From Paludibacteraceae bacterium (lineage in GTDB: Bacteria; Bacteroidota; Bacteroidia; Bacteroidales; Paludibacteraceae): a stretch of DNA of 64,000 bases. The notes under the pieces are model-generated. The model made no database searches and had not been told where the DNA came from. It saw only the letters and a list, made by a program, of their open reading frames with translations. The stretch spans positions 1 through 64,000 of the forward strand of contig JAFUVS010000010.1 in the NCBI GenBank assembly GCA_017471175.1. Direction: 5' to 3'. Position 1 is the stretch's first letter. The number at the start of each line of letters is the position of its first letter. Of the stretch, positions 36,102-38,503 are shown piece by piece. The translations under genes and the position numbers were made by a program.

Positions 36102-37475
36102 TTAATCCATTTTAGGCAGTTTGGCGAGGGAGCGTGCCAACTCCTCGTCGGTGGGGATATAGTCGGTCATCGTGCCATCGTTGTACTCCTCGTAGGCTTT
36201 GAGGTCGAAGTAGCCAGTGCCTGTCAGACCGAAGAGGATAGTTTTCTCTTCTCCCGTTTCTTTGCAACGGATAGCCTCATCGAGCGCAACGCGGATGGCG
36301 TGGCTGCTTTCGGGCGCGGGCAGGATACCTTCGATGCGGGCAAAATACTCGGCAGCCTCAAAGACAGAAGTCTGCTCTACGCTGCGCGCTTCCATCAAGC
36401 CCTGATCATAGAGTTCGGAGAGGATAGGACTCATACCGTGGTAGCGCAGACCGCCTGCGTGGTTGGGCGAAGGGATGAAGTCGGAGCCGAGGGTGTACAT
36501 CTTCGCCAAGGGGCAAATCATACCCGTGTCGCAAAAGTCGTAAGCATACTTACCGCGCGTCAGGGAAGGACAAGAAGCGGGTTCTACGGCAATGATGCGA
36601 TAGTCGGCTTCGCCGCGCAGTTTCTGCCCCATAAAGGGAGCGATGAGTCCGCCGAGGTTGGAGCCGCCGCCGGCACTGCCGATGATGATATCGGGACGGA
36701 TGCCGTACTTGTCCATAGCCGTTTTGGTTTCCAATCCGATAACACTCTGGTGGAGCAGGACTTGGTTGAGGACGCTGCCTAAGACGTAGCGATAGCCTTC
36801 GTGGGTGACGGCGTACTCGACCGCTTCGGAGATGGCACAGCCGAGACTGCCGGTGGTGTCGGGATGGGCGGCAAGGATACGGCGACCCACTTCGGTGGTG
36901 TCAGAGGGCGATGGCGTAACCGATGCGCCATAGGTACGCATCACTTCGCGGCGGAAAGGCTTCTGGTGGTACGAGCCTTTTACCATATAGACCTTGAGGT
37001 CCATATCAAGGTAGGCGCACGCCATCGAGAGAGCCGTCCCCCATTGACCGGCACCCGTTTCGGTGGTCAGACCTTTGAGTCCCTGCTTCTTGGCATAATA
37101 GGCTTGGGCGATGGCGGAGTTGAGTTTGTGGCTGCCGCTGGTGTTGTTACCCTCGAACTTGTAGTAGATATGTGCGGGGGTCTGCAACTTACGTTCTAAT
37201 TCGTACGCGCGCACGAGAGGCGAGGGGCGATACATCTTGTAGAAAGAGCGAATCTCATCGGGAATGGCGATATAAGGCGTATCGTTGTCTAATTCCTGCT
37301 GTACGAGTTCGGTGCAGAAAACGTGCTCCAACTCGGCAGCGGTCATCGGCTCGCGAGTACCGGGATTGAGCAGGGGAGCGGGTTTTTGCTTCATGTCCGA
37401 GCGGACGTTGTAGTAATGCGTAGGCATTTCTTTTTCTTCAAGATAAATCTTGTAGGGAACAGGTTGTTTTTCCAT
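36102..37475 (-). CDS. trpB: Tryptophan synthase beta chain, TrpB2 type
   Basis: This 457-residue PLP enzyme condenses indole with serine to make tryptophan. It is of the TrpB2 class, longer than standard TrpB, with the N-terminal extension seen in that class. The PLP lysine is in NTSGSHKLNS (K117), followed by TETGAGQWGTALS and the phosphate-binding GSAGGGSNLGG. No trpA is adjacent, as is usual for TrpB2. The 260-nt leader carries a Trp-Trp leader peptide and a terminator/antiterminator pair, which argues that expression responds to charged tRNA-Trp and supports a true role in tryptophan supply. Confidence 0.94.
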   Translation of the reverse strand: MEKQPVPYKIYLEEKEMPTHYYNVRSDMKQKPAPLLNPGTREPMTAAELEHVFCTELVQQELDNDTPYIAIPDEIRSFYKMYRPSPLVRAYELERKLQTPAHIYYKFEGNNTSGSHKLNSAIAQAYYAKKQGLKGLTTETGAGQWGTALSMACAYLDMDLKVYMVKGSYHQKPFRREVMRTYGASVTPSPSDTTEVGRRILAAHPDTTGSLGCAISEAVEYAVTHEGYRYVLGSVLNQVLLHQSVIGLETKTAMDKYGIRPDIIIGSAGGGSNLGGLIAPFMGQKLRGEADYRIIAVEPASCPSLTRGKYAYDFCDTGMICPLAKMYTLGSDFIPSPNHAGGLRYHGMSPILSELYDQGLMEARSVEQTSVFEAAEYFARIEGILPAPESSHAIRVALDEAIRCKETGEEKTILFGLTGTGYFDLKAYEEYNDGTMTDYIPTDEELARSLAKLPKMD

Positions 37476-37560
37476 AGTTGTTGGTTTTTGGGTTTATTTG
37501 TTTATTGGTTTATTGGTTTAAATGCGTTTAGACGGGTTGCTATCTTTGAATCCGTAATCT

Positions 37561-37603
37561 TTCAAAAAAACAAAATCAGCCGTAGGAGGGTTCCTACGAC
37601 TGA
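37561..37603 (-). terminator. Attenuator terminator hairpin of trpB2
   Basis: On the minus strand TCAGTCGTAGGA (37603-37592) pairs with TCCTACGGCTGA (37587-37576) through a 4-nt loop, 12 bp with one wobble. A T-rich run follows (37575-37561). It ends about 85 nt before the trpB2 start codon, so it would stop transcription inside the leader. Confidence 0.85.
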
Positions 37604-37735
37604 CGTTGTCTTTTATTATTATGAGAAAAAAAAACTTACAGATTACGACAAACGACAAGGTGACCCTCCTTTTTCAAAGAGCGTGCGCCACCAACAAAAA
37701 TTTGCCATTTGTGCGTTCATAATTCTTACAAAAAA
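37584..37735 (-). promoter_or_regulatory. Ribosome-mediated Trp attenuator (leader RNA)
   Basis: The leader RNA can form two exclusive structures. AGGAGGGT inside the leader-peptide reading frame (37670-37663) is perfectly complementary to ACCCTCCT (37591-37584), the loop and 3' arm of the terminator; CCT/AGG pairs and a CGTTTGTC/GACAACG stem inside it extend this antiterminator. A ribosome stalled at the two Trp codons (37693-37688) would leave AGGAGGGT free and so prevent termination. A ribosome reaching the stop at 37643 would cover its neighbourhood and allow the terminator. I recall a described Bacteroidota motif of this kind (Bacteroid-trp) but could not compare it. Confidence 0.82.
37643..37720 (-). 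CDS. trp leader peptide with tandem Trp codons
   Basis: This is a 25-codon open reading frame starting ATG at 37720 and ending TAA at 37645-37643. The peptide begins MNAQMANFCWWRTLF, with Trp codons at positions 10 and 11. It begins about 20 nt after the predicted -7 box and overlaps the antiterminator arm. Its job would be to sense charged tRNA-Trp, not to make a functional product. Confidence 0.8.
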   Translation of the reverse strand: MNAQMANFCWWRTLFEKGGSPCRLS

Positions 37736-37740
37736 CGGCG

Positions 37741-37772
37741 CAAAAGTACAGGCTTTTGCAGGACTGACCAAA
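37741..37772 (-). promoter_or_regulatory. Bacteroidota promoter for the trp leader and trpB2
   Basis: On the minus strand a -7 TACTTTTG (37748-37741) lies 20 bp downstream of a TTTG (37772-37769), followed by TGCGCCG. It places the transcript start just upstream of the leader peptide. Confidence 0.8.
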
Positions 37773-37864
37773 TGACGGACTAATTTTTCCCGAAAAAACT
37801 TTCTATCTTACTGATATTCAAATATGATTTTTGCATAATTTTCATCGATTTGTAGCAAAAAGCA

Positions 37865-37918
37865 GACAAAATGGCACAAAATCGGACAATTTGGCACCCT
37901 AAATCGGACAAAATGGCA
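37865..37918 (+). repeat. Three GACAAAATGGCA repeats upstream of the sigma-54 promoter
   Basis: Copies start at 37865, 37885 (GACAATTTGGCA) and 37907, spaced 20 and 22 nt, that is about two helical turns. Two are preceded by AATCG. They lie 25-80 nt upstream of the -24 box, where an enhancer-binding protein could sit. Confidence 0.6.
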
Positions 37919-37940
37919 GGCAAAAACCGAAAAAACGGGG

Positions 37941-37957
37941 TTGGCACGGAGGTTGCA
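37941..37957 (+). promoter_or_regulatory. Sigma-54 (-24/-12) promoter of hsp20
   Basis: TTGGCAC, five bases, then TTGCA matches the sigma-54 consensus exactly, with GG at 37943-37944 and GC at 37955-37956. The predicted transcript has a leader of about 105 nt before hsp20. The rpoN gene is in this same window. Confidence 0.85.
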
Positions 37958-38074: not shown

Positions 38075-38503
38075 ATGACACCTGCAATGTATCGTAGAAA
38101 CAGTTGGTTCCCGACCGTATTTGATGAGTTCTTTGACTCGGATTTGATGAACAGCGCAAGCACTACTGCTCCCGCAGTCAATGTAAAAGAGACAGAAAAA
38201 GCCTATATCGTGGAGTTGGCTGCTCCGGGCGTAAAGAAAGAGTACTGCCGTGTTCATATCGATGAAGACCACAACCTGTGCGTTGCCATCGAGAACAAGT
38301 TCGAGCACAAAGAGGAAGACAAGCATTCGCACTACCTGCGCCGCGAATTCAGTTACACCAACTACGAGCAACGTTACACCCTGCCCGAAGACGTGAACGA
38401 AGAGCAGATTAACGCCAAAGTAGAAAACGGCATCCTTACCATCGAACTGCCCAAAGTTCAGAAAGTAGAAGGCAAGACGACACGGCAAATTGAAATCGGC
38501 TGA
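38075..38503 (+). CDS. Small heat-shock protein Hsp20
   Basis: This 142-residue ATP-independent chaperone holds unfolded proteins in soluble oligomers. The alpha-crystallin domain spans about residues 28-125 (VKETEKAYIVELAAPGVKKE through VENGILTIELPK), flanked by a short N-terminal arm (MTPAMYRRNSWFPTVFDEFF) and a short tail. Transcription appears to depend on sigma-54 rather than the housekeeping factor. It is monocistronic with a terminator 24 nt downstream. Confidence 0.95.
   Translation: MTPAMYRRNSWFPTVFDEFFDSDLMNSASTTAPAVNVKETEKAYIVELAAPGVKKEYCRVHIDEDHNLCVAIENKFEHKEEDKHSHYLRREFSYTNYEQRYTLPEDVNEEQINAKVENGILTIELPKVQKVEGKTTRQIEIG

Follow-up and report, generated by a model that had tools for sequence, protein, structure and literature searches.

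A predicted ribosome-mediated tryptophan attenuator upstream of stand-alone trpB2 in Bacteroidales

Organization of the trpB2 locus

The window, a stretch of 64,000 nucleotides from a Paludibacteraceae bacterium (contig JAFUVS010000010.1), carries a leader element between hsp20 and trpB2, spanning positions 37772-37564 of the minus strand. The promoter, the 25-codon leader with an adjacent Trp pair, the terminator with its T-run and the 8-nt complementarity that an earlier sequence-only reading had described were all located on that strand (Table 1). The promoter call at 37772-37741 is based on the Bacteroidota promoter consensus, TTTG...TAnnTTTG. The core of segment 2, AGGAGGGT, sits inside the leader ORF, and the codon at 37696-37694 (minus strand) is TGT in the window and TGG in the three closest relatives. 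At the leader stop, CGTAATCT (37647-37640, minus strand) is complementary to AGATTACG directly after the T-run (37560-37553, minus strand), possibly by chance.

Table 1. Features of the trpB2 leader region in the window
Feature	Position	Strand	Basis or remark
-33 promoter element TTTG (putative promoter)	37772-37769	-	sequence
-7 element TACTTTTG (TAnnTTTG)	37748-37741	-	20-nt spacer from the -33 TTTG
Leader ORF, 25 codons and stop, peptide MNAQMANFCWWRTLFEKGGSPCRLS	37720-37643	-	ATG at 37720, TAA at 37645-37643
Two adjacent Trp codons (putative control codons)	37693-37688	-	sequence and relatives
Candidate 1:2 hairpin CTCTTT-GAAA-AAGGAG	37681-37666	-	predicted fold without ribosome
Segment 2 core AGGAGGGT	37670-37663	-	exact complement of 37591-37584
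Intrinsic terminator hairpin (3:4), 13 bp, 4-nt loop	37604-37575	-	terminator scan and fold
ACCCTCCT, terminator loop and first part of 3' arm, predicted pairing partner of segment 2	37591-37584	-	
Terminator T-run TTTGTTTTTTT	37574-37564	-	sequence
trpB2, putative regulated gene, 457 aa	36102-37475	-	NCBIfam profile scores
hsp20, small heat-shock gene	38075-38503	+	

The gene downstream of the leader encodes TrpB2 and not TrpB1 by the curated NCBIfam cut-offs, as its product scores 681.9 bits against PRK12391 (cut-off 366) and 590.9 against TIGR01415 trpB_rel (518.85), with 150.5 against TIGR00263 trpB being under the cut-off of 392.45. A nudix gene adjoins trpB2 on its downstream side and lies on the opposite strand, so trpB2 is probably transcribed alone.

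The hsp20 gene is preceded by an exact match to a sigma-54 type -24/-12 site (TGGCACGGAGGTTGCA, 37942-37957, plus strand), the one site of this type in the window, where 0.63 would be expected with at most one mismatch. The match is kept in one of the closest relatives (L031/L250). Upstream of it, three direct repeats of about 22 nt (37859-37922, spacing 20 and 22) resemble activator sites.

Distribution and conservation of the leader

Taken alone, the window sequence is only suggestive, since the 8-nt complementarity is weak (p ~0.066 against shuffles of the segment) and the four terminator-like sites in a 4-kb stretch are a chance number (shuffle mean 4.8). It is the comparison with relatives that decides that the element is real.

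TrpB2 is present in 142 of the 393 genomes of the order (E 1e-100), and in a set of 61 relatives 32 gave matches at E 1e-3, TrpB1 accounting for some of them. In all, 156 trpB2 upstream regions were collected, window included. The 155 with at least 400 nt were scanned for an ORF that starts with ATG, is 8-45 codons long, contains clustered Trp and is followed by a terminator at a distance of 5-100 nt. Such a leader with its terminator was found in 57 of the 155 Bacteroidales regions, window included, of which L124, L207 and L219 were judged probably false. The remaining 98 regions gave no such leader, some of them perhaps being missed leaders, as only ATG starts were considered.

Each element of the window lies near chance before comparison, which would suit a terminator that ends some unrelated short RNA, with the Trp-rich ORF being fortuitous. 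The same scan, however, found leaders in 0 of 155 regions on the opposite strand and in 0, 0, 0, 0 and 1 of 155 in five dinucleotide shuffles, and the pairing described below is specific to each leader's own terminator, so that a fortuitous ORF is hardly credible.

The Trp codons occur as WWW in many leaders and as WWWW, WRWRW or WCW in others, and clusters of two are also seen in L008, L133, L211 and L237. The 60 nt preceding the leader ATG contain TAnnTTTG in 33 of 56 trpB2 leaders, against 2.0 expected from mononucleotide shuffles.

The three closest distinct leaders found belong to genomes G012 (L023/L251), G431 (L250, which reads as L031) and G441 (L252). All three have AGGAGGGT and ACCCTCCT unchanged and three Trp codons each; the window leader has lost the first of three Trp codons (TGG to TGT). 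Over codons 1-20 of the window and these relatives, one, two and seven columns vary at the first, second and third codon position, respectively. When 61 genus genomes were searched at the DNA level with the window leader as query, all homologous leaders among the matches examined stood before trpB2 (L250-L252). Four more short matches (L253-L256), within query bases 6-60, have no TrpB2 nearby, and the search gave two further short matches besides. The Trp codons and the pairing of AGGAGGGT with ACCCTCCT, on whose conservation in close relatives the sequence-only reading had staked its case, are kept there, and elsewhere in the order leaders of other sequence show the pairing again.

By the ATG-only scan, no leader precedes trpB2 in ten congeners whose TrpB2 is 50-54% identical to that of the window (G001, G003-G005, G016, G025, G026 and G034-G036). 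The same holds for relatives of the window's own type, namely L003 (84% identical), L004 (81%), L122 (82%) and five of the loci L123-L128 (75-78%), the sixth, L124, having been flagged and judged false.

Pairing of segment 2 with the terminator

Pairing was assessed in 56 leaders (L124 was dropped), which are variously related to one another, and the permutations take no account of this kinship. The segment following the Trp codons scores on average 22.8 against its own terminator (n = 56), compared with 16.1 against the terminators of other leaders (sd 0.47; highest 17.5 in 200 permutations) and 14.7 for shuffled segments (sd 0.33). Duplex energies agree: they average -19.6 kcal/mol with the own terminator and -13.3 kcal/mol with those of other leaders (sd 0.49), where 300 permutations went no lower than -14.6, and the own terminator is within the best tenth by this measure for 36 of the 56. 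The best pairing takes in the terminator loop in 50 leaders and leans to the 5' arm in 37 and to the 3' arm in 17, the window among the latter. Different sequences keep the pairing in different leaders, as in L033 (ATCGTAAG/CTTACGAT) and L009 (GTATTAAACAATC/GATTGTTTAAAAC), and it is weak in L032 (p 0.72 in the ungapped test). The 8-nt match to which the sequence-only reading drew attention is exact and conserved in close relatives, and it belongs to a longer 2:3 pairing, of which it is the strongest part.

Given the usual footprint, a ribosome that stalls on the last Trp codon would have its leading edge 14-25 nt past the first base of that codon. The pairing starts within this interval in 47 of the 56 leaders, against 26.8 in permutations (sd 3.6, highest 36), in keeping with the proposal that the geometry fits control by tRNA-Trp charging. 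Features by which an attenuator is recognized are present: a short ORF with a Trp cluster lies between promoter and gene, an intrinsic terminator lies between this leader and the gene, and sequence comparison indicates a competing pairing that starts downstream of a ribosome halted on the Trp codons.

A short Trp-bearing leader before a gene of indole metabolism also recalls TnaC, in which case free Trp would arrest the nascent peptide and tRNA-Trp charging would not be sensed. TnaC induces on Trp excess, which is the wrong sign for an enzyme that makes Trp. The peptide past the Trp cluster, moreover, varies widely over the 57 leaders, all of which retain the cluster (judged by eye). The pairing begins immediately past the expected edge of a ribosome halted on the Trp codons, and related genes carry T-boxes, which are sensors of charging. 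We therefore consider arrest of the TnaC kind very improbable and favor the sensing of tRNA-Trp charging.

Folding and the proposed switch

Equilibrium folds with set ribosome positions were computed for the window leader only, in four states. Without a ribosome, the candidate 1:2 hairpin ties up segment 2 and the terminator forms as well. When segment 2 is free and the RNA ends inside the 3' arm of the terminator, all eight AGGAGGGT:ACCCTCCT pairs are in the minimum-energy fold (-22.6 to -23.3 kcal/mol); for an RNA that has been made no further than ACCCTCCT, the best fold is at -22.6 and the pairing runs on imperfectly along the 5' arm. The antiterminator had been expected in the equilibrium fold with a stalled ribosome, where the terminator won instead. 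Once complete, the terminator has a pairing probability of 0.87-1.0 per pair in all four modelled states, and antitermination must for this reason be kinetic. In the model, the antiterminator would have to form and hold while the polymerase clears the T-run, which the order of synthesis would permit.

That the terminator dominates every modelled state, and that Trp-Trp-Trp of the three closest relatives is replaced by Cys-Trp-Trp in the window, could also mean that the family is real and that this member of it is decaying, being mostly closed or unresponsive. The promoter and the leader frame are intact, however, as are segment 2 and the terminator, and the window shares its cluster of two Trp codons with the four other leaders named above. 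As for the dominance of the terminator, it was seen in folds of the window leader only and may not be peculiar to it. Decay is thus improbable, if less so than the other alternatives, and a working attenuator is preferred.

In such an attenuator, RNA polymerase would start about 10-20 nt before the leader ATG, at a putative start site, with a ribosome following behind. When Trp-tRNA is plentiful, the ribosome would clear the Trp codons and either it or the 1:2 hairpin would mask segment 2, upon which the 3:4 terminator would form and transcription would stop before trpB2. With the usual footprint, segment 2 lies just outside a ribosome sitting at the leader stop codon, and masking under Trp excess would therefore rest on the predicted 1:2 hairpin. 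When Trp-tRNA is scarce, the ribosome would presumably stall at TGG TGG with its leading edge just short of AGGAGGGT, and the free segment 2 would pair with the 5' arm, the loop and the start of the 3' arm of the terminator before the 3' arm is complete. The terminator would be delayed by this kinetic antitermination, and trpB2 would be read.

Sequence and comparison establish the parts, their conservation and their pairing; the transcription start, the stalling, the kinetic antitermination and indole as the substrate in vivo are what we infer. We put the probability at roughly 0.88 that the element is a ribosome-mediated attenuator which senses tRNA-Trp charging and controls a stand-alone TrpB2 making Trp from external indole and serine.

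Tryptophan genes and indole salvage

No trpA over the cut-off, no trpC (PF00218) and no trpD (TIGR01245) was found in the window's own genome (78% complete) and 24 congeners. In four of the congeners, including G012, trpA gave weak matches that stayed under the cut-off. In control genomes, each of the three families was found in 14 of 14. No second TrpB match was found in the window's own genome. The view that TrpB2 works in Trp supply without trpA, which was proposed from the window, is strengthened by these absences. Because this genome and the 24 congeners yielded none of these genes, with the cut-off applying to trpA, the switch most likely governs indole salvage, and the element would tune that salvage to the need for Trp. 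Elsewhere in the order, leader-bearing trpB2 also occurs in genomes that have trpA, trpC and trpD, namely at L008 (G038), L024 (G043) and L025 (G050).

The beta-2 protein is termed indole-scavenging in PMC2700814. TrpB2 of Bacteroides thetaiotaomicron gave a growth benefit to an E. coli trpA deletion in a cross-feeding assay, which the authors explain as the use of secreted indole (PMC11535334). The leader offers a sequence-based reason to assign TrpB2 of Bacteroidales, which carries only the name TrpB-like in NCBIfam, to the supply of Trp. Where trpA, trpC and trpD are missing, cells would take up the indole of their neighbors under the control of Trp.

T-boxes before related genes in Bacillota

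The TrpB2 of the window shares 80-84% identity with the proteins of 75 loci labelled Bacillota, most of them Clostridia, and only 50-54% with the TrpB2 of ten of its own congeners, which suggests transfer between phyla. Of the Bacillota loci, 73 have an upstream sequence of 300 nt or more, and in 47 of these a T-box motif precedes trpB2; a TGG specifier-like motif is present in 43 of the 47, the next commonest codon occurring in 11. Five of the 47 were picked for comparison with the Rfam T-box model, which matched all of them with E values no higher than 2e-8; one match exceeded the gathering score. In the window, no T-box was found at gathering, nor in 37400-37950 with E up to 10.

A quick tree put the window trpB2 inside the T-box sequences. 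This placement was given up, as a careful tree is consistent with a single Bacteroidales clade (AU p 0.41); in it, the window groups with five other Bacteroidales sequences (99/94), and transfer in either direction would fit it. An older study of the genomes then known states that recent transfer is unlikely to explain the spread of trpB2 in bacteria (PMC1854888). We give about even odds to a history in which trpB2 passed between Bacillota and Bacteroidales, uncharged tRNA-Trp coming to be read by a T-box in the former and by an unrelated leader-peptide attenuator in the latter. In the window's genus this attenuator, possibly derived from a native Bacteroid-trp leader, would govern indole salvage in cells that lack Trp biosynthesis. 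The locus also offers a natural example of two unrelated RNA sensors serving one signal before related genes of two phyla.

Two Bacillota loci without the T-box motif, L045 and L099, have a different Trp leader with the shared peptide FGFxxGWWFSRxFxVP, about 340 and 220 nt upstream of trpB2 and followed by an apparent hairpin (judged by eye). This leader was seen in 2 of the 26 Bacillota loci lacking the T-box motif.

Comparison with known systems

Bacteroid-trp (RF01692) appears in a list of cis-regulatory Bacteroidetes motifs in PMC2864571. The family carries the name tryptophan peptide leader in Rfam. Its matches in the 61 relatives number three (L111-L113), just upstream of TrpB1-like genes that are 31-33% identical to the window TrpB2. 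Bacteroid-trp and the window leader are alike in phylum, in a leader peptide with a Trp cluster and in the terminator. All three matches were compared. In two of them, L112 and L113, GTCGTGAG matches CTCACGAC, which is terminator loop and 3' arm, exactly over 8 nt (by eye), the same layout as that of AGGAGGGT/ACCCTCCT, and the L111 leader MYTQMVNRFWWWH resembles MNAQMANFWWWR. The comparison with Bacteroid-trp that had been called for thus yields a shared layout, while the covariance-model score is not reached: RF01692 gave no match in the window with E up to 10 (gathering 49 bits) and none in the window's own genome, and 0 of 33 leader-bearing trpB2 loci scanned were at the gathering score, two having 40.8 and 35.4 bits against 49. 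The window leader would work like a Bacteroid-trp leader while standing outside the Rfam family as its gathering score delimits it, and homology between the two is suggestive only. Since Bacteroid-trp exists, both the mechanism and the phylum of the leader have a precedent; attenuation in Bacteroidota, as claimed from the window, is supported by the leader and is not new for the phylum.

Rfam gave nothing at gathering on the window. The matches around the leader with E up to 10 (Qrr, BTnc060, Srn266, Trp_leader, S15 and MH_s25) are all below their cut-offs and were set aside. Classical Trp_leader logic consists of Trp codons, alternative 2:3 and 3:4 hairpins and a T-run. The enterobacterial Trp_leader (RF00513), which scores 15.4 bits in the window against a gathering score of 41, follows the same logic as the window leader. 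It differs in controlling a trp operon, whereas the window leader controls a stand-alone trpB2 with segment 2 inside the leader ORF and the best match including the terminator loop. T-boxes bind tRNA directly without a leader peptide and sense its charging. The T-box (RF00230) before the Bacillota relatives of the same gene, whose TGG specifier-like motif suggests a readout of tRNA-Trp charging, is unrelated to the window leader in structure.

Among predicted actinobacterial trp attenuators, PMC1262725 places one before the C. diphtheriae operon that it names trpB2A. This attenuator too is predicted to be ribosome-mediated and to act through Trp, and the gene behind it bears the name trpB2, but there the gene stands with trpA and the phylum is another; the parallel goes by the gene name. 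Searches of the openly accessible literature turned up no description of a trpB2 attenuator in Bacteroidota. To these systems the present leader adds a widespread class of loci (57 of 155 regions), which the Rfam Bacteroid-trp model misses in the 33 loci scanned.
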